From Deltaproteobacteria bacterium (GTDB lineage Bacteria > Desulfobacterota > Dissulfuribacteria > Dissulfuribacterales > QOAL01), in assembly GCA_026991135.1 (NCBI GenBank), contig JALXCD010000114.1, positions 1-48,454 on the forward strand: a DNA stretch of 48,454 nucleotides, read 5' to 3'. The translations under genes were made by a program, and so were the position numbers. The notes under the pieces are model-generated. The model saw nothing but the letters and a program-made list of their open reading frames with translations. It ran no database searches and was not told where the DNA came from. How positions within the stretch are numbered: the first letter of the stretch is position 1; the number at the start of each line of letters is the position of its first letter. Below are positions 35,757 to 44,836 of the stretch, piece after piece.

Positions 35757-36553
35757 AAATCGATACCCTTTCCCTTTTAAATGGTGACCTTGTCCTAAAC
35801 AAGGATTTTAAATCCATCCTTTTTGAAAACAATCTTAAAAAACCAGAGGCCTTCTGGACCATTGAGGATGAGCCTGTAAAAAAGGTCTTAAAGGAAAGGG
35901 GAACAGGAAGGTTTTATTTAAAGGGAGAATCTGGAAAAGGCATTGAGTGCTACATAAAAAGATATACCCCAATACCTTTTAAAAAAAAGATAAAGGATTT
36001 CTTAAACCTCAAGTTCAGGGTCTTTGATGCCTTTAATGAGTGGAGGGCCCTTTTGGCCTTTCATGAAAATCTTCTTCCAACCCTTATTCCAGTTGCTGCT
36101 GGAAGGCATTTAAAGGGAACATTCTGCGTAACCTTGGGATTAAGGAATTATCAAAGGGCCTCTGACCTTCTTAAGGAAGATAGTGGACTTGACAGAGATA
36201 AAAGGCGGATTCTTATCTCAAATATAGCCATTTATGCTGCTAACATGCATAATAAGGGGTTTGCCCACCAAGACCTTTATCTAGTTCATTTTTTCATAAA
36301 GGAAGATTTAACACCCTATTTAATTGACCTTCAAAGGGTAATAATCCAAAAGGATTTAAGAAGAAGGTGGGCAATTAAAGATCTGGCAGAGCTTCTTTTT
36401 TCAGCAAGACTTGTAATGTCAGATGAGGAAACAGAGTTTTTGATAGATGAATATTCCAAGGAAATTGGCTTTGACATTAGAAAAGATAAAAGGCTTTTTA
36501 GGGAAATTGAAAAAAGGGCCAATAGAATAATGGCAAGATATAAAAACGCTTAG
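35753..36553 (+). CDS. LPS core/Kdo kinase-like protein (WaaP/KdkA family)
   Basis: The 266-residue product fits the Kdo/WaaP family of eukaryote-like sugar kinases that phosphorylate the LPS inner core on the inner face of the membrane. The ATP-lysine region is ECYIKRY near 65-70, the catalytic loop is GFAHQDLYLVHFFI near 170 (His-x-Asp) and the metal-binding Asp is in YLIDLQR near 192. It is translationally coupled with the formyltransferase-like gene. Its stop codon overlaps the stop of the convergent HEAT-repeat gene by 3 nt. Confidence 0.82.
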   Translation: MKIDTLSLLNGDLVLNKDFKSILFENNLKKPEAFWTIEDEPVKKVLKERGTGRFYLKGESGKGIECYIKRYTPIPFKKKIKDFLNLKFRVFDAFNEWRALLAFHENLLPTLIPVAAGRHLKGTFCVTLGLRNYQRASDLLKEDSGLDRDKRRILISNIAIYAANMHNKGFAHQDLYLVHFFIKEDLTPYLIDLQRVIIQKDLRRRWAIKDLAELLFSARLVMSDEETEFLIDEYSKEIGFDIRKDKRLFREIEKRANRIMARYKNA

Positions 36554-37251
36554 CAGCCTAAAAGGTCAAGGGCAATTTTAGAGGCCTCAGAAACGCTTAT
36601 CTTTTTAACCTCATCTTCTATAAAAAGCTCAACTTCCCTTTTATCAGAAAGCCCTTTTTGTATCTTCTGGCAAAAGGTTTTATCTCCTGAATACCCTATG
36701 GCCAAAGTGGCAAGGACCTTTGATGTAGGATCATTATCATCAAGATATGTGCTTACAATTTTATTGGCATTAATCTCATTGTAAATTTCTTTCTGGGACT
36801 TTGACAGTCTATAAAGCCCCCAAAGAGCCCCTCTTCTAAGGGGAAGATATTCAAGAAAATTCCCCTCCTCCCACACATAGGAAAGAAGTATCCTTGCATA
36901 TTCTCTTGAAAGGCCCTTGTGGTTAGCCATTGCCTCAGCCATTGCTTCAGGCGCACCCCAGCCAATGCCGCCCGATTCGTCATTTAGACTCCACATGAGT
37001 CTTCTCATGACAATTCTTGCTTCTTCCATGTCCTTTTCCGCAAGTCTTGCCATTACTCTGCCAAAGGCCCTAATGGCCAGCCATCTTTCAAGGGCATCCG
37101 GCCTATAAAAAAAACGGATGAGGGGAGAGATAAGGGCCTTGGGAGGGGATGAATCAATAAAGTTTATAATGGCAGGAAGGTCTCCCTTTTTTAAAAGCTT
37201 CTGGAGCCTCCTGCCAATATTCTTTCTGTCCCTAAAGGAAAGGTTAGACAT
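36550..37251 (-). CDS. HEAT-repeat protein (DVU0298 family)
   Basis: The 233-residue soluble protein is almost entirely helical, with repeated units such as ALERWLAIRAFGRVMARLAE, YLPLRRGALWGLYRLSK and PTSKVLATLAIGYSG, as in HEAT-repeat proteins. The segment SLNDESGGIGWGAPEAMAEAMANH is characteristic of the DVU0298 family described from Desulfovibrio. Function unknown. It begins 13 nt after the stop of the desulforedoxin-like gene, so it is the last gene of the oxidative-stress run. It ends overlapping the convergent kinase gene. Confidence 0.8.
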   Translation of the reverse strand: MSNLSFRDRKNIGRRLQKLLKKGDLPAIINFIDSSPPKALISPLIRFFYRPDALERWLAIRAFGRVMARLAEKDMEEARIVMRRLMWSLNDESGGIGWGAPEAMAEAMANHKGLSREYARILLSYVWEEGNFLEYLPLRRGALWGLYRLSKSQKEIYNEINANKIVSTYLDDNDPTSKVLATLAIGYSGDKTFCQKIQKGLSDKREVELFIEDEVKKISVSEASKIALDLLGC

Positions 37252-37264
37252 TTAAAATTAATTT

Positions 37265-37591
37265 TTATTCAAGGGGTTCCATTTCCTTTCCACAGCAAAG
37301 AGGGATAGGCTCTCCTGCCTTACAGTTTTTGTACTTATTGCATATGGCACAAAAATAGGTGCAGTCTTCTTCTACCTTTTTGTCAGAATACTGAGTCTTT
37401 CCTCCTGGAACGCCTTCTATATAAAACCTTGCCACCTTATCATGTCCAGGGACAAAGTTCCCCATGGGGACTATCTTCTTATTTTCCCCATAACAGTCAA
37501 TTACAACCTTCCACAGAACCTCAAGAGAAGATTCTTCCTGGGGATTTTCAGGCATAAATTCTATTACATTTTTGTCCACTAAGATTTTCAT
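37265..37591 (-). CDS. Small protein with a C-terminal desulforedoxin-like cysteine site
   Basis: I do not recognise the 108-residue protein as a whole. Its N-terminal 75 residues are mixed, with VPMGNFVPGHDKVARFY. The last 35 residues read YFCAICNKYKNC, then PLCCGKEMEPLE: C-x2-C-x14-C-C followed by G-x-x-M. This closely copies the FeS4 site of desulforedoxin and desulfoferrodoxin centre I (C-x2-C-x15-C-C-G in the protein at 39796). A mononuclear iron site is therefore likely, by inference. It starts 29 nt after the flavodiiron gene's stop and may be an extra redox partner of that oxygen reductase. Confidence 0.75.
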   Translation of the reverse strand: MKILVDKNVIEFMPENPQEESSLEVLWKVVIDCYGENKKIVPMGNFVPGHDKVARFYIEGVPGGKTQYSDKKVEEDCTYFCAICNKYKNCKAGEPIPLCCGKEMEPLE

Positions 37592-37620: not shown

Positions 37621-38817
37621 TTAGGAAAGGGCCTCTATGATCTTTTGGCCCATTAATATTCCGGCCTCTCTGCACCTTTTTAGGTCATCATGGGTTGGTA
37701 CGTATTTCACTTTAATGCCTTCATGGATCAGCTCAAACTTCCAGTCTTCCATTGCCTTATTTAGGTGCTTTACTGACTCTCCACTCCAGCCATAGGAGCC
37801 AAAGGCAAAACCAAACTTGTTGGCAGGCCTAAGCCCCCTAAGATACATGATGAAGCCGGCCATTCTGGGTAAAAGCCCATTATTTAGAGTGGGGCTTCCA
37901 AGACATATTCCTTTGGCATCAATGACATCTGTGACGATCTCGCTTCTGTGATTTACACTTAGATCAAGAAGCTTTACGCTAACCCCTGTGGATTCAATGC
38001 CATCGGCAACGGCTTTTGCCATCATTTCGGTGCTGTGCCACATGGTATCATAAATAACCAGGGCCTTTTTGCTGCCTCTATGATGGGACCAGTCTTCATA
38101 GGCCTTTATGATCTTTCCAGGGTCCTTTCTCCAGATGACTCCATGATCCGGTGCAATCATGTCTATTTCGATGCCAGAGTCGGCCACACTTTTTAAAAGC
38201 TTTCGTACCTGCGGTGAATATAGATAGAGGATATTTGCATAGTACTTTTTGGCCTGATACATGAGCTCGGATTGATCTACCTCGTCATCATAGCGCTCGC
38301 TTGTTCCAAGGTGCTGTCCAAAGGCATCGCTTGATATCAGGAGCTTTTCTTCAGGGATATAGGAAAACATGCTGTCTGGCCAGTGCAGCATCCTTGTTTC
38401 AATAAAGGTGATGCTCCTTTTGCCAACAGAGATGGTTTCTCCGTTTTCCACCACGTGATAGGGCCAATCCTCCCTGTGAAAGTGGGAAAGAAGGTTTTTG
38501 TGTCCCATTTTTGAGCAGATAATCTTTTCAGGCTTAACCAGATCAACGATTTCGGGAAGGCATCCACTGTGGTCCATCTCAACGTGGTTTACCACGATGT
38601 AGTCGATTTTTTCAGGATCAGTTAAGGTCCTGATCCTGTGGACTAGGTCTGAACAAAGGTTCTTTTTGGCAGTATCAAAAAGAACAGTCTTTTCATCAAA
38701 CATGAGGTAGGCATTGTAGGTAGTGCCTCTATAGGTAGAATAGCCGTGAAAGTCTCTTACAAGCCAGTCAACGGCCCCCACCCAGTAAATGTCCTTTTTT
38801 ATCTCATAGACTTGCAT
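37621..38817 (-). CDS. Flavodiiron protein (rubredoxin:oxygen oxidoreductase)
   Basis: FprA/ROO enzymes reduce O2 to water (or NO) using electrons from rubredoxin. The 398-residue product has the beta-lactamase-like diiron domain with the ligand motif HVEMDHSG near residue 80 (H-x-E-x-D-H), His in RMLHWPDSMF near 148 and Asp/His in SSDAFGQH near 168. A flavodoxin domain (about 250-395) follows, with FMN-binding YDTMWHSTEMMA. There is no C-terminal rubredoxin domain; two separate rubredoxin genes lie just upstream. The ATG at 38817 has GGAGG upstream; a longer TTG start is part of that Shine-Dalgarno. Confidence 0.95.
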   Translation of the reverse strand: MQVYEIKKDIYWVGAVDWLVRDFHGYSTYRGTTYNAYLMFDEKTVLFDTAKKNLCSDLVHRIRTLTDPEKIDYIVVNHVEMDHSGCLPEIVDLVKPEKIICSKMGHKNLLSHFHREDWPYHVVENGETISVGKRSITFIETRMLHWPDSMFSYIPEEKLLISSDAFGQHLGTSERYDDEVDQSELMYQAKKYYANILYLYSPQVRKLLKSVADSGIEIDMIAPDHGVIWRKDPGKIIKAYEDWSHHRGSKKALVIYDTMWHSTEMMAKAVADGIESTGVSVKLLDLSVNHRSEIVTDVIDAKGICLGSPTLNNGLLPRMAGFIMYLRGLRPANKFGFAFGSYGWSGESVKHLNKAMEDWKFELIHEGIKVKYVPTHDDLKRCREAGILMGQKIIEALS

Positions 38818-39016: not shown

Positions 39017-39238
39017 TCAAGCTTTAGATTGAATATGGCCTTCCTTAACAGAACCTTCTCCAGCCAATGGTTTGAACATTGCTTTGGTGGCGCCGCAGAT
39101 GGGACAGCGCCAGTCATCCGGTAGTTCTTCAAAGGGGGTTCCTGGCGGGATTTTTCCCTTCCTGTCCCCCTTGTCGGGATTATAGATGTATCCGCAATTG
39201 ACTGTTTGACATTGATACATTTGTTCTGCTGTTGCCAT
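39017..39238 (-). CDS. Rubredoxin-type protein with N-terminal extension (73 aa)
   Basis: The 73-residue product carries a rubredoxin domain with the iron-binding pairs in [11 protein letters not shown] and [11 protein letters not shown]. The first pair is spaced C-x4-C (CQTVNC) rather than C-x2-C, as in the minority of rubredoxins with an inserted pair of residues (Rd-2 type of Desulfovibrio). The ATG at 39238 follows AAAAGGAGA; a longer in-frame reading upstream lies within the ferritin gene. With the normal rubredoxin next to it, this gives two carriers of probably different redox potential. Confidence 0.93.
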
Positions 39239-39269
39239 GACTTCTCCTTTTTCCGTATAAGGGGTTGTT

Positions 39270-39794
39270 TTATTCCTTAGCTGGCATGGGAACAGGAAGC
39301 GGCCTTTGGCCAAGTTCTCTATCCACCATGAAGAGTCCGCCGCCTTTTCCATCTGAGCCTCCTGCAAGCTTAAGCTTCTGGACTACAGCACTGGCAGAGG
39401 CCTCTTCCTCAACCTGTTCGCTTACAAACCACTGGAGGAAAATCTGGGTAGCATGGTCCTTTTCCTCTATGGCGAGGTTCATAAGATCATTAATGAGGCT
39501 TGTAACATACTTTTCGTGCTCGTATGCGTGTTCAAAGACTGCAAGGGCAGAATCCCATTCCTGGGGCGGAGTCTTAATGGATTCGAGAAGGACCCTTCCA
39601 CCACGCTCTATGACAAAGTCATAGATTTTCATGGCATGAATCATCTCTTCCTGGGTTTGAGCCTTCATCCAGTTTGCACAGCCTTCAAGGTCAACACTTT
39701 CAAAGTATGATGCCATTGAAAGATAAAGATAAGCTGAATAAAGTTCTGCATTTATCTGCTTGTTGAGTGCCTTTTCCATTCTTTCACTAAGCAT
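39270..39794 (-). CDS. ftnA: Ferritin
   Basis: The 174-residue product is a non-haem ferritin, storing iron as ferric mineral after oxidising Fe(II) at a diiron centre. The ferroxidase residues are visible: Glu in [11 protein letters not shown] near 17, Glu and His in [14 protein letters not shown] near 50 and Glu in [12 protein letters not shown] near 94, plus [22 protein letters not shown] near 120. ATG 39794 follows AGGAG; longer in-frame starts overlap desulfoferrodoxin. It begins 1 nt after the desulfoferrodoxin stop, so iron storage is tightly linked with superoxide removal. Confidence 0.95.
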
Positions 39795-39795
39795 T

Positions 39796-40170
39796 TTAAC
39801 TCCTCCACAGTCCATGAAGATTGCAATATGCACGGGCTGTAACATCTGTTGCATTTGTGCAAAAGGTAGCTTCAGGCTCTTGCCCTGGGCTCAAAAATAC
39901 CCTTTGGGCAACGTCTCCTGCAATTAGCTCAATCCACTCGATATAGTGCTTTTCTTCCATTGGATGGGCAACGCTTCCAACCTTTACCTTGTAACCGCCA
40001 TCAACCTTTTCGATGACAGGCACATGTTTTTCCTTGGCGGCATCCACGGTATTTTCCTCCATGAGGACCATTGGCTTTCCGCAGCAAACCAGCTGCCCCT
40101 TTCCCTCATGGACCATTTCAACCATGTTTCCGCAGATTTCACATTTATAGACTTCTAATTTCTTGGTCAT
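39796..40170 (-). CDS. dfx: Desulfoferrodoxin (two-iron superoxide reductase)
   Basis: The enzyme reduces superoxide to H2O2 without making O2. The 124-residue product has centre I ligands Cys10, Cys13, Cys29 and Cys30 (KCEICG, VCCGKPM) and the centre II catalytic site: His49 in EKHVP, the His pair in [12 protein letters not shown], and Cys/His in YCNLHGLW near the C-terminus. It has no signal peptide, so it acts in the cytoplasm; rubredoxin is the expected donor. It lies between the exported superoxide reductase and ferritin. Confidence 0.96.
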
Positions 40171-40197: not shown

Positions 40198-40650
40198 TTA
40201 GATTACCTTTACTGTTACAGGCTCACCTATCCATGCGCCATGGAGGTTACATTCAGCTATAGCCTCAAGGCGGCATGTCTTGTTGAGCCTTATTCTGAAG
40301 TATCCATTTGGAGAGGTGTTCCCGCCAGCCTCATTTTCTAGTTCAATGGTTTCATGGCCATCCAAAAGTAGCTTTATTTCATTAATAAAGTGTTCAGGGG
40401 TGGAGGGATGTTCCACCATGAAACCAACCTTTACTTCTATGTTAAACCATTCCCCCTTTTTCACCTGGGAGGGCGCCTTAATGAGGGGAACATGCTTTTT
40501 CTCAAGCATGGAAGGTTTTTTCCTGTTGGTGAGGCGACTTAATTTCTTTTGCCCTTTGTGGCCCTTTGCCCAGGATTTTTCAACCTTGCCAGCAACAAGG
40601 GCTGCTGCCGCTGTGACTACTGCGCCTTTTACAAATTTTCTTCTTTCCAT
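40198..40650 (-). CDS. Tat-exported one-iron superoxide reductase-like protein
   Basis: The 150-residue product starts with a twin-arginine signal (MERRKFVKGAVVTAAAALVAG). It then carries the neelaredoxin-type His4-Cys iron site: KKHVPLI, EHPSTPEHFINEI and ECNLHGAW. There is no CC-type centre I. ATG 40650 with a GGGGGAT upstream is preferred over an ATG four codons earlier, because the twin-Arg is then at the very start. Its position between a secreted cytochrome and the cytoplasmic desulfoferrodoxin suggests a periplasmic superoxide reductase. Because the match to the SOR active site is from motifs only, activity is not proved. Confidence 0.82.
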   Translation of the reverse strand: MERRKFVKGAVVTAAAALVAGKVEKSWAKGHKGQKKLSRLTNRKKPSMLEKKHVPLIKAPSQVKKGEWFNIEVKVGFMVEHPSTPEHFINEIKLLLDGHETIELENEAGGNTSPNGYFRIRLNKTCRLEAIAECNLHGAWIGEPVTVKVI

Positions 40651-40675
40651 GATATCCCCCATATTTTGGGTTTTT

Positions 40676-42013
40676 TTATTTTACTTCAATGACCATCTTG
40701 GCAGTATTGACAAGAATTGGTCTATATTCAGACTCTGGCAGCTTAAAGAACTTGCCCACAGAACTTGGAACCTGGGCATAAAAGAGGTTGGCGTTTATGG
40801 TAAGTTTCCCCTTAGGCAAGTTAGAGGGTAGCTCCCAGACGTAGTTTTCAATCTTTGTCTCCCTTGGTCCAATCCTATAATCAACAACGGTATTATCCTT
40901 TGTGTACCACTGGCATATGGTCATCCTGCCCTTTGGATCAAAAAATGGCTTTCTGAATATCCTTGCGCCATCAGGGACATCTCCATCCCTTTTAAGGCCC
41001 TTAAAGCCCTTTATTTCCTTTATTTCTCCAATTGCCTGGTATGCATAGGTCTTTGAATTGGCAATGGTATAATCTTCGCCTTTAAAGCCCTTTGACTTTA
41101 CTGGGATATGATAACTCTTTCCATTTGCGTCAATGGCCCAGACCTCAAGCCACAGCATCCTCTCTTCACTTGAGCCAGATGGTATATAATGTCCTGCCTT
41201 ACCGTTAAAAAGCACCACCCTGAGCTTAAGGTTATTGCCTGTTGAAAGAGCCTTTTTATTGGCATAAAGGGCAAGATCAATAGCGCCTTTTAATTTTGAG
41301 TCTGAATGGGACCCTTGAAATACATGATGGGCAATATCAGGGCGGTTTTTGCCCATTGAGGTGGACTTTCCTGGAGCTTTGTGCATATGGCAATCCTGGC
41401 AGACAACCCCTTCCTTGGCATAAGGCCCATTTTTCCATTCACGATAGGTGGCTTTAACCCAGGCGCCATATGGACTTTGCTCATCATGGCAGGTAGCGCA
41501 AAATTCAGCACTCTTGTGGAAATTGCTAAAACGGCTCTTATGGAAGGGAGACTTTGCGTCTTTTCTTGGTCCATTTTTGGTCTTTCCTGGGGTAATTTCC
41601 CAGCTAAAGTTAAAGGGCTCTTTCTGGTTTGTGCCTGTAATATTATGACATATCTCACATGATACCCCTTCATTTGCCCTTGTGTTTTTGTCGGCAGGCT
41701 TTGGCGGAATATCTCCTGACAAAAATGCCAATGGACCATGACATGCGATACAGCCAGCCTTTACACCTGAAACCTTTTCCAGTTTTTGGGCATGGGGTAG
41801 AGCAAGCTCAAAATATTCCACCTGATCCCATGAATGGGTATAGCTTTTTGACATCATGCTGTCATTCCATTCCTGAAATATTTTCTTGTGACAGGCACCA
41901 CATTTTTGGGGGCTGCTAAAGTCATCGTATTTATACTGGCCCATTTTTGCACCTATACAAAGACCTGGTAATAACAGGGCAGCCATTAAAAAGACCACTA
42001 TCCTTTTAATCAT
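40676..42013 (-). CDS. Secreted pentahaem cytochrome c (cytochrome c554-like)
   Basis: The 445-residue product has a Sec signal peptide (residues 1-21) and five CxxCH haem motifs in its first 210 residues: CGACH, CIACH, CEICH, CATCH and CQDCH. The remaining 230 residues are free of haem and look like a beta-rich domain (NNLKLRVVLFNGKAGHYIPSG). The haem part resembles cytochrome c554-type multihaem proteins. It is periplasmic. It ends 25 nt before the Tat superoxide reductase start, so it may donate electrons to that protein or to outside acceptors; this is inference. Confidence 0.88.
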   Translation of the reverse strand: MIKRIVVFLMAALLLPGLCIGAKMGQYKYDDFSSPQKCGACHKKIFQEWNDSMMSKSYTHSWDQVEYFELALPHAQKLEKVSGVKAGCIACHGPLAFLSGDIPPKPADKNTRANEGVSCEICHNITGTNQKEPFNFSWEITPGKTKNGPRKDAKSPFHKSRFSNFHKSAEFCATCHDEQSPYGAWVKATYREWKNGPYAKEGVVCQDCHMHKAPGKSTSMGKNRPDIAHHVFQGSHSDSKLKGAIDLALYANKKALSTGNNLKLRVVLFNGKAGHYIPSGSSEERMLWLEVWAIDANGKSYHIPVKSKGFKGEDYTIANSKTYAYQAIGEIKEIKGFKGLKRDGDVPDGARIFRKPFFDPKGRMTICQWYTKDNTVVDYRIGPRETKIENYVWELPSNLPKGKLTINANLFYAQVPSSVGKFFKLPESEYRPILVNTAKMVIEVK

Positions 42014-42044: not shown

Positions 42045-42065
42045 AGGGGCAGCAAACCTGCCCCT
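42045..42065 (-). terminator. Stem-loop between the selenoperoxiredoxin and cytochrome genes
   Basis: AGGGGCAG (minus strand 42065-42058) and CTGCCCCT (42052-42045) form a perfect 8-bp GC-rich stem with a 5-nt loop. It is 11 nt after the peroxiredoxin stop and is followed by AATCAATAATTTTTT. The T-run is displaced by 9 nt, so it may terminate partially and thus lower expression of the downstream genes. Confidence 0.5.
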
Positions 42066-42076
42066 ACAACCCAAAA

Positions 42077-42670
42077 TTACTTGGCGTGTTTAGACAAGTA
42101 TTCCTTTACTCCCTCAAAGGTTGGCTTCATGGCATCTTCGCCAGGCTTCCAGTTGGCAGGGCAAACCTCACCATGGGTTTCATGGTATTGCAATGCCTCG
42201 AGAATCCTTAAGGCCTCGTCAATATTTCTTCCCAGTGGCAGGTCATTCACCAATTGATGGCGAACGATGCCGTCCTTGTCTATGAGGAAAAGCCCCCTTA
42301 GTGAAATTCCAGCATCTTCAAGGAGCACTCCATAGGACAAAGAAATTTTCTTGGTTAGGTCAGAGACCAGTGGATAGCTTATTCTTCCCACTCCACCTTC
42401 TTCAATTGGGGTTTCCCTCCACGCAAAATGGGTGTAGGGTGAATCCACTGAGATGCCAAGGATCTCGCAGTTCTTTTCTCTGAATTTTTCTGCCGCCTTG
42501 TCCAAGGCGATTATCTCACTTGGTCAAACAAAGGTAAAATCCAAGGGATAGAAGAAGAGAAGTACATACTTTCCCTTGTAATCCGAAAGAGAGATATCCT
42601 TTATCTCTCCGCTTGGCATGACTGCCTGGGCCTTAAAATCCGGGGCTTCTTTTGTAACCATTACGCACAT
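42077..42670 (-). CDS. prxU: Selenocysteine-containing peroxiredoxin (AhpC/Prx1 type)
   Basis: From ATG 42670 (GGAGG upstream) the frame runs through one in-frame UGA (42526-42524) to the stop at 42077, giving 197 residues. The UGA is codon 49, exactly at the peroxidatic position: [15 protein letters not shown], where family members have [13 protein letters not shown]. The P-x3-T-x2-[C/U] active site is complete, and the resolving Cys170 is in EVCPANW. A SECIS-like hairpin follows the UGA. The product reduces H2O2 or organic peroxides. If UGA were a stop, only 48 residues would be made and the strongly conserved remainder lost. Confidence 0.9.
42494..42526 (-). promoter_or_regulatory. Selenocysteine UGA and bacterial SECIS-like hairpin
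   Basis: The UGA is at 42526-42524. Fourteen nt later the message forms CGCCUU-GGAC-AAGGCG (minus 42509-42494), a 6-bp stem with a G-G starting the apical loop, +21/+22 from the UGA. Bacterial SECIS elements typically place a short hairpin with G in the loop 16-37 nt after the UGA, so position and form fit. An alternative stem CCAAG/CUUGG (from +1) would compete. Confidence 0.75.
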
Positions 42671-42748: not shown

Positions 42749-43327
42749 TCACCAAGTCTCAACTAGCAATTCAAAATGTGCCTTTTCATGGGCACAGGCA
42801 GGGCATTTTTCAGGTGGCTCATTCCCTTCATGGATATAGCCACAGTTTCTGCAGCGCCACTTGACAGGCGCATCCCTTTTAAAGACCTTTCCTTCCTCTA
42901 TATTTTTGGCAAAGGCCTTGTAGCGTTCTTCATGGAACTTTTCAGCCACTGCTATGGCCTCAAAGACACAGGCAATCTCGTTAAAGCCCTCTTCCCTAGC
43001 CACTTTGGCAAACTCAGGGTACATTTGGCTATGTTCGTAATTTTCGCCTGCGGCTGCTTCCTTGAGGTTTTCAAGGGTTGTTCCAATCTTGCCTGCTGGG
43101 AATCCAGCCGTAATCTCTATTTCTCCGCCTTCCATAAACTTAAAGAGTCTTTTGGCATGTTCCTTTTCCTGATTTGCAGTCTCTTCAAATACTGCTGCAA
43201 TCTGGATATATCCTTCCTTTTTTGCCTGGCTTGCAAAATAGGTGTACCTATTTCTTGCCTGGGATTCGCCAGCAAAGGCCTTTAAAAGATTCTTTTCAGT
43301 CTCGGTTCCTTTTAGGGATCTGCTCAT
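42749..43327 (-). CDS. rbr: Rubrerythrin
   Basis: Rubrerythrin reduces H2O2 to water at a diiron site in anaerobes. The 192-residue product has the ferritin-like domain with Glu and Glu-x-x-His ligands ([11 protein letters not shown] near 18, [15 protein letters not shown] near 50, [17 protein letters not shown] near 90, [10 protein letters not shown] near 127). A C-terminal rubredoxin domain has [11 protein letters not shown] and [14 protein letters not shown]. It is intact and of normal length. It lies 31 nt after the small winged-helix gene and 78 nt before the selenoperoxiredoxin, so two unrelated peroxidases are neighbours. Confidence 0.96.
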
Positions 43328-43358: not shown

Positions 43359-43607
43359 TTAGGCGCTAACAAGGTTCTTTCCGGCCTCAGTAATCTGGTA
43401 TCTGCACCTTTGAGGGCTTTCAAGAAGGCCCTTTTTCTTTAGGGCGCTGATGCGACAGCTTAAGGATTTTGATGGAATGCCTGTGGCCTCAGAGATGTCT
43501 TTTGTCGCAACAGGTCCTTCCATCTGGGCAACTGCCTTAAGTATCTTTTCCTGCTCTTCAGTAAGCTTTATTTCCTTGTTCTTTTTTGAACCGCATTTGC
43601 AACCCAT
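43359..43607 (-). CDS. Small winged-helix regulator-like protein with N-terminal CxC
   Basis: The 82-residue product begins MGCKCGSKKNKE and then has a winged-helix DNA-binding domain: EEQEKILKAVAQ, then PVATKDISEATGIPSKSLSCR as the helix-turn-helix and ISALKKKGLLESPQRCRYQIT as the wing. Four cysteines (3, 5 and two in the domain) could sense metal or redox state; this is inference. GGAGG lies 7 nt before the ATG. It sits between perR and rubrerythrin in the same direction. I do not recognise a named family. Confidence 0.8.
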   Translation of the reverse strand: MGCKCGSKKNKEIKLTEEQEKILKAVAQMEGPVATKDISEATGIPSKSLSCRISALKKKGLLESPQRCRYQITEAGKNLVSA

Positions 43608-43647: not shown

Positions 43648-44043
43648 TCAATTATTTTTATTTGCTTCTTCTTCCTGGCATTGTGGGCAAAGCCCCATAA
43701 ACTGCAATCTTTCTCCAAAGATTTTATATCCCTTTGTGTCCTGGATTATTTTTTTTAGATTAATGTCCTGTGCAGTTTTAATATCTGCTATTTTCCCACA
43801 TCTTATGCAAAAAACATGGCTGTGTGGTGAAACATCTCCATCAAAGCGTTTTTGGCGACTTCCGTATTCAATTTTATTAATTATTCCTGCATCAGAAAGC
43901 TGTTCGAGGTTTCTGTAAACAGTGGCAAGGCTTATTCTGGGTAGCCTTTTTCTAACCAGCTCAAAAAGCTCATCTGCAGTAGGATGGCTTTTGGTCTTTT
44001 TAAGTTCTTCTAATATTATTTCTCTTTGATTTGTAATTCTCAT
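43648..44043 (-). CDS. perR: PerR-type peroxide-sensing Fur family repressor
   Basis: The 131-residue product is a Fur family regulator with the winged helix SHPTADELFELV and ISLATVYRNLEQL. All five positions of the PerR regulatory metal site align with the Bacillus protein: His in KSHPTADE, Asp in RFDGD, the two His in SPHSHVF and Asp in CGKIADI; Fur has Glu rather than Asp in the second. The structural zinc ligands CIRC and CPQC are present. Peroxide would oxidise a metal-binding His and release DNA. A matching box lies upstream, so autoregulation is likely. Confidence 0.92.
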   Translation of the reverse strand: MRITNQREIILEELKKTKSHPTADELFELVRKRLPRISLATVYRNLEQLSDAGIINKIEYGSRQKRFDGDVSPHSHVFCIRCGKIADIKTAQDINLKKIIQDTKGYKIFGERLQFMGLCPQCQEEEANKNN

Positions 44044-44061
44044 TAAATACTATATCCTTTT

Positions 44062-44076
44062 TGATAATAATTATCA
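44062..44076. promoter_or_regulatory. PerR/Fur box (7-1-7 palindrome)
   Basis: TGATAATAATTATCA is a perfect 7-1-7 palindrome, matching the PerR/Fur box form (TTATAATnATTATAA-type). It lies 8 nt downstream of the -10 hexamer, covering the presumed transcription start, and 18 nt upstream of the perR ATG. Bound repressor would block the whole downstream run of genes. Confidence 0.85.
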
Positions 44077-44084
44077 TATTTGGT

Positions 44085-44112
44085 ATTTTAAAGCCCTTTT
44101 TGGATTTGTCAA
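44085..44112 (-). promoter_or_regulatory. Sigma70-like promoter of perR and the oxidative-stress genes
   Basis: On the minus strand TTGACA (44112-44107), a 16-nt spacer and TAAAAT (44090-44085) form a near-perfect promoter. Transcription would begin near 44078, at the edge of the PerR box, about 35 nt before the perR start codon. Confidence 0.75.
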
Positions 44113-44176: not shown

Positions 44177-44836
44177 TTAAAGGAGTGAAAAGGATCTTAG
44201 GATTTCTGCAAGTCTAGGGTCTTTTTGGGCGTATTCCTTTAGAGCTTCCAAAAGTTTTTGGAGTTTTTTCTTATCCTTGGTGATATCATCTTCCATGATT
44301 TTCACCTTGTCTTCAAATGGTCTAATCATGGTTCGTCTGTCCCAAAGTGCAAAGCCTATTGTGATTACTACAATTGAAACAAAGGCCCCAAGCATTGCAA
44401 TTAAAAGATTCTGGATAAACTCTAAGTGTTTGTTCGTATCGAAACGAAGTTCATCAATCCGTTTATTTGTGTCAAAGCGAAATTCTTCCAGGCGTCTGTT
44501 TGTATCAGCTCTAAGGATATCAATCTTTTTATTTATATCTAGTCTAAGATTTTCAATTCTTTTTTCAATCAGCTCAAACCGTTTGTCCATCTGTTGAAAT
44601 CTTTTTTCAATCAACTCGAATCTCTTGTCAATTTGCTCAAATCTTTTTTCAATGAGTTCAAATCTCTTGTCAATCTGATCGAACCTCTTATCTACCTGTT
44701 TAAGGCGCTCATCTATTCTTACCAGTAGATCACGGTCTTTTTGAGAAAAGGTATTTTTTTGAGCAAATGAAACAGTTGGAAGGAGTAAATGACATAAAAG
44801 AGATATTAATAGAAAAAGAAGAGCAGAATTTTTCAT
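44177..44836 (-). CDS. Membrane-anchored coiled-coil protein, heptads then hendecads
   Basis: The 219-residue product has a signal peptide (1-25) and a long coiled coil. That coil starts with seven 7-residue units of the type DKRFELI or EKRFEQI (about 48-96), followed by four 11-residue units (RLDINKKIDIL, RADTNRRLEEF, RFDTNKRIDEL, RFDTNKHLEFI). A hydrophobic segment (LLIAMLGAFVSIVVITIGFALWDRR, about 144-166) follows, and then a charged, presumably cytoplasmic tail ending PRLAEILRSF. Similar unnamed proteins occur in Aquificae and thermophilic anaerobes. Function unknown; the repeats also show at the DNA level. Confidence 0.85.
   Translation of the reverse strand: MKNSALLFLLISLLCHLLLPTVSFAQKNTFSQKDRDLLVRIDERLKQVDKRFDQIDKRFELIEKRFEQIDKRFELIEKRFQQMDKRFELIEKRIENLRLDINKKIDILRADTNRRLEEFRFDTNKRIDELRFDTNKHLEFIQNLLIAMLGAFVSIVVITIGFALWDRRTMIRPFEDKVKIMEDDITKDKKKLQKLLEALKEYAQKDPRLAEILRSFSLL

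Follow-up and report, generated by a model that had tools for sequence, protein, structure and literature searches.

The stretch of DNA analysed here, 48,454 nucleotides long and referred to as the window, carries on its minus strand a cluster of genes which begins with a Fur/PerR-family regulator (43648-44043; PF01475 at 1.7e-30, the nearest NCBIfam model being PerR, below its cut-off) and continues with a small winged-helix protein conserved in the cluster (43359-43607), a rubrerythrin (42749-43327; PF02915 plus a rubredoxin-like domain) and a peroxiredoxin (PRX, 42077-42670; PF00578). These are followed by a pentahaem c-type cytochrome, predicted to be secreted (CYT, 40676-42013), and a one-iron superoxide reductase, predicted to be exported by the Tat pathway (SOR, 40198-40650), after which come a cytoplasmic desulfoferrodoxin, or 2Fe-SOR (DFX, 39796-40170), a ferritin (39270-39794; PF00210 at 7.9e-46), a rubredoxin (39017-39241; PF00301), a flavodiiron protein of the FprA/ROO type (37621-38817; PF19583 plus PF00258), an unnamed 108-aa protein (37265-37591) and, as the last gene of the conserved order, a DVU0298-family protein (36550-37251; NF045662, 197.9 bits). 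The 108-aa protein, for which Pfam gave no match, is a constant member found at the same position in most clusters, and its C-terminus (CAIC...PLCCGKEM) resembles the iron site of desulforedoxin. The order CYT-SOR-DFX lies inside a conserved Fur/Rbr/Prx/.../FprA cluster and recurs in many genomes, and the arrangement is therefore more than chance.

At the head of the cluster (44062-44112, minus strand), a promoter-like site and a palindrome were recognized by consensus matches. The predicted promoter, TTGACA-16-TAAAAT (44112-44085), is the best such match in the region and is followed by the perfect palindrome TGATAATTATTATCA (44062-44076), a putative Fur/PerR-like box; in 15 of 20 related clusters a similar box, with three mismatches at most, is found upstream of the regulator gene. 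The protein encoded at 44177-44836 of the same strand, which is either secreted or membrane-bound, contains several nearly identical coiled-coil repeats in a row (KRFELIEKRFEQID). As regards the peroxiredoxin gene, an in-frame TGA (42524-42526) was found at the peroxidatic residue (DFTFVUPSE, translated with TGA as U). This codon is either Cys or TGA in 26 loci, TGA prevailing in most related loci and Cys appearing in several, so that PRX is a selenoprotein peroxiredoxin. Between PRX and CYT there is a perfect hairpin, GGGGCAGGTTTGCTGCCCC (42045-42067, minus strand), present as a single copy in the window, which is possibly an attenuator or a repeat element; the Rfam search gave nothing above the gathering score.

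The reading frame of SOR opens at ATG 40662, and ATG 40650, which has a ribosome site (TGGGGGATATCATG) and matches the start of the homologues, is preferred. From this start the protein has 150 aa and begins with MERRKFVKG, a Tat-type signal, while the gaps to its neighbours are 25 nt (CYT ends at 40676) and 27 nt (to DFX). The Pfam Desulfoferrodox domain (PF01880) matches SOR at 1.3e-24; Desulfoferrod_N, the desulforedoxin domain, was not found in SOR by the Pfam search and is present in DFX, and SOR consequently has no centre I. DFX, in turn, combines both domains, scores 209.7 bits with TIGR00320 (over the cut-off) and has no signal peptide. In this respect, the initial annotation, which had placed a one-iron SOR with a Tat signal 25 nt from a secreted cytochrome with five haem motifs, and a cytoplasmic desulfoferrodoxin as the next gene, proved to be correct.

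The Tat signal model TIGR01409 gave 16.9 bits (cut-off 16.7), and in 15 aligned sequences both the twin arginines R7 and R8 and the iron ligands H57, H85, H91, C138 and H141 are invariant, the ligands being also aligned to those of SORs in the PDB. The top fold matches of the SOR model are solved SORs, the first being that of Ignicoccus (4brj, E 2.1e-9), and the fold is an Ig-like beta-sandwich without a desulforedoxin domain. The class II one-iron SORs or neelaredoxins (Ignicoccus 4brj, Thermotoga 2amu, Pyrococcus 1do6) share this fold and the Fe(His)4Cys set, but differ from the protein of the window in the latter's predicted export and in the position of a Glu, at -3 instead of -2. Two other identities were considered and discarded: a two-iron Dfx, as the N-terminal desulforedoxin domain is missing, and SoxY, since the protein has no GGCGG arm (its C-terminus is EPVTVKVI), scores 26 bits with TIGR04488 against a cut-off of 125, and has the iron ligands. 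SOR would load iron and be active on superoxide; from what is known of the family, both its export and its superoxide chemistry are likely. In the genome of the window, TatC is encoded three times, and two genes for cytochrome assembly (PF01578) are present.

With a twin-arginine signal and centre II only, SOR has the make-up of the TAT-SOR class named by SORGOdb in 2011, to which Desulfovibrio salexigens, Desulfuromonas acetoxidans and Geobacter uraniireducens contribute members (PMC3116461), and for the TAT-1Fe-SOR of Sulfurimonas pluma periplasmic superoxide scavenging was proposed in 2023 (PMC10066037). All these proteins are one-iron, carry a twin-arginine signal and have no centre I, the likeness being one of signal and domain make-up. 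The Tat-exported class itself is thus not new. Nevertheless, no cytochrome partner is named in the available text of either source (PMC3116461, PMC10066037), whereas in the window SOR belongs to an oxygen-defence operon and its cytochrome neighbour is conserved.

The active site presents one departure. SOR reads LEKKH, that is, the Lys at -1 from the first His is kept and the Glu stands at -3, so that the EKH motif is not found. A Glu at -3 (LExxH), with none at -2, was observed in 27 out of 27 distinct Tat-SORs read; in the desulfoferrodoxins and ordinary one-iron SORs from the same loci the Glu is at -2 (EKH). An iron-capping Glu out of register could mean that the activity of this SOR-like protein has been lost or changed, involving another metal, ligand or substrate, and the weak SoxY similarity and SoxY fold matches of SOR could be taken in the same sense. 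This is considered unlikely, as none of the five ligands (four His, one Cys) varies, the Lys at -1 is constant throughout the clade of the window's SOR, and the SoxY GGCGG tail is missing. Moreover, the PDB holds structures of engineered SORs in which another residue takes the place of that Glu (A. fulgidus E12V and E12Q), which is why LExxH is treated here as a variant mark.

As for the cytochrome, CYT (445 aa) has a Sec-type signal at its N-terminus, as judged by eye, five CxxCH motifs (CGACH, CIACH, CEICH, CATCH and CQDCH) in its N-terminal half and an Ig-like C-terminal half, which is the layout of the PHC/pentahaem c552 kind. The PHC family, in which Thermochromatium tepidum c552, ExtKL and Gsu2801 were grouped together in 2025 (PMC11976967), has in common with CYT the five motifs and the C-terminal Ig-like domain, and the closest solved relative of CYT is T. 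tepidum c552 (5ze8; phmmer 9.2e-12, Foldseek 1.2e-14), its best match in both fold and sequence. However, the identity is of only about 20%, and CYT lies in an oxygen-defence operon, not in an extracellular-electron-transfer cluster. Membership of ExtKL was discarded, NF040886 giving 64 bits against a cut-off of 250; CYT is a relative, not an ExtKL.

The 42 orthologues of CYT, from MAGs assigned to several phyla, show a mean column identity of 72% (42-row alignment), with six conserved non-motif His (60, 158, 229, 230, 236 and 275) which could be the distal ligands for all five haems; the haem half of the AlphaFold model is of low confidence and too weak for reading ligation. These residues bear on the idea that CYT might itself be the main superoxide- or peroxide-reducing protein, with SOR as a mere helper. 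Such a role would agree with the retention of CYT without SOR in oxygen-defence clusters, but six His would suffice for all five haems and leave no open haem, and this idea is held to be very unlikely.

The clade of the window's SOR comprises 19 genomes, in one of which (G041) the gene lies at a contig end, leaving 18 readable. SOR is found directly behind CYT in 15 of these 18 (families f1, f2 and f97), and so the conserved pairing, whose absence would have counted against the initial annotation, does exist; in three genomes (G021, G196 and G285) the two genes are unlinked. The phylum was represented by 297 genomes, of which 16 have a CYT orthologue and 7 a member of the SOR clade, all 7 being among the 16; in a 60-genome set CYT is present in 38 and SOR in 16. 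Inside the order of the window CYT is near universal, and its co-occurrence with SOR therefore says little there; outside it, CYT was found in five genomes, three of which have SOR, two of these three coming from one genus. In other words, SOR implies CYT (with one contig-end exception), but CYT does not imply SOR. In fact, CYT without SOR is common, in the same cluster and with desulfoferrodoxin as the next gene (loci L044, L053, L055 and L059, among others). Furthermore, in G015 a 3' remnant of SOR stands behind an intact CYT, while in G035 a deletion has removed what lay between the middle of CYT and the 3' end of SOR, a second full CYT being present elsewhere. CYT being kept without SOR, these deletions included, of the two it is CYT which is constant and SOR which is optional. 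A strictly dedicated CYT-SOR couple is thus ruled out, since CYT occurs and persists without SOR, and CYT must have another role besides SOR.

In about 14 of 61 loci, CYT lies beside an octahaem HAO/HDH-like cytochrome c8, a protein unrelated to SOR and absent from the genome of the window; in G021, c8 occupies the exact operon slot which SOR has in the window. At the loci where CYT adjoins c8, namely L178 (G021), L176 (G285), L177 (G196) and L040-L043, peroxiredoxin and rubredoxin genes are nearby.

This distribution admits an alternative, according to which the exported SOR is real but takes its electrons from another, or any, periplasmic cytochrome; CYT would have a job of its own, carrying electrons or acting as a reductase in oxidative/nitrosative stress, as it may also do next to the octahaem HAO-like protein, and the adjacency would reflect shared regulation. 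The far wider occurrence of CYT, its position beside Prx and octahaem c8, its retention after loss of SOR and the three unlinked genomes all agree with this, and 72% mean column identity is more enzyme-like than expected of a simple carrier. Nevertheless, the close position of SOR, which directly follows CYT in 15 of 18 genomes, exceeds the needs of shared regulation, as does the fact that exported SORs independently adjoin other cytochromes. This alternative is regarded as possible, but less likely than a donor role of CYT.

These other cytochromes were found in a second Tat-SOR clade. Another order, which, from SORGOdb, is probably Geobacterales, carries this clade in 38 of 117 genomes. In family f36 a secreted monohaem c6-type cytochrome, unrelated to CYT, directly adjoins SOR on the same strand in 10 of 14 genomes. 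Since this c6-type family has one to four members per genome, chance adjacency should be rare. Moreover, the gene lies downstream of SOR in genus g219 and upstream in g47 and g225, and a neighbour which changes sides without being separated from SOR points to function more than to descent alone. In one further genome a cytochrome P460 gene (L171, 3933-4448) lies about 4 nt upstream of the Tat-SOR, and in one more genome of the second clade a divergent monohaem cytochrome stands beside SOR; at the Tat-SORs read in families f57 and f101 no adjacent cytochrome was found. The FmdB-like and thioredoxin-like CxxCH proteins beside some Tat-SORs (L158, L162 and L169) were not regarded as cytochromes and do not enter these counts. 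The recurrence in two SOR lineages, with two unrelated cytochromes, is the best evidence available and suggests that c-type cytochromes feed exported SORs.

Each turnover of a superoxide reductase takes one electron, so that without a periplasmic donor an exported enzyme would be idle. We propose, with a probability of about 0.55, that the cluster is an oxygen-defence operon in which CYT and SOR form a periplasmic arm. The one-iron SOR would be exported by Tat and would reduce superoxide to H2O2 outside the cytoplasm, the cytoplasm itself being covered by desulfoferrodoxin, rubredoxin, the flavodiiron protein, rubrerythrin and peroxiredoxin. Rubredoxin would be out of reach for the exported enzyme, and the electrons would come from periplasmic c-type cytochromes, the likeliest immediate donor being CYT, made from the same operon. 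CYT, for its part, would be a general carrier in the response to oxidative/nitrosative stress, serving other periplasmic enzymes as well, such as the octahaem HAO-like protein. The steps are not equally firm: that c-type cytochromes feed exported SORs is likely, on the basis of the two clades, while, if one immediate donor has to be named, CYT is the best choice, at about even odds, electron transfer being inferred in both cases. Thus, the earlier suggestion that the cytochrome is the natural donor of SOR keeps its force as regards the conserved neighbour, with the second clade and its other cytochrome in support, but has to be given up in so far as CYT is not dedicated to SOR.

Should the proposal hold, anaerobes would use periplasmic cytochromes as the reductant for superoxide beyond the cell membrane. 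In addition, the cytochrome neighbours in the two clades represent concrete, directly testable donor candidates for exported SORs. It had also been stated at the outset that no cytochrome-dependent periplasmic SOR of this form was known to have been described. Our literature search, which covered few subscription journals, indeed found neither an electron donor for exported SORs nor a cytochrome-fed exported SOR, a silence to be taken as a lead and not as proof of novelty; the exported class, on the other hand, already bears the name TAT-SOR (SORGOdb, PMC3116461).

A broader reading can be put forward more tentatively, at somewhat less than even odds. In the 39-row tree a branch with support of 100/98 sets the LExxH proteins apart, and each of the two Tat-SOR clades has support of its own (99/95 and 99/98). 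The LExxH exported SORs might accordingly constitute a distinct periplasmic family dependent on c-type cytochromes, whose donor would have been swapped in the course of evolution (pentahaem PHC-type, monohaem c6-type and perhaps P460). If so, superoxide removal would be linked to the periplasmic cytochrome network instead of to rubredoxin. The LExxH side of the tree also holds, on a separate long branch, two SORs without a Tat signal (L108 in G303 and L109 in G263), which are possibly related to the exported group but cytoplasmic.
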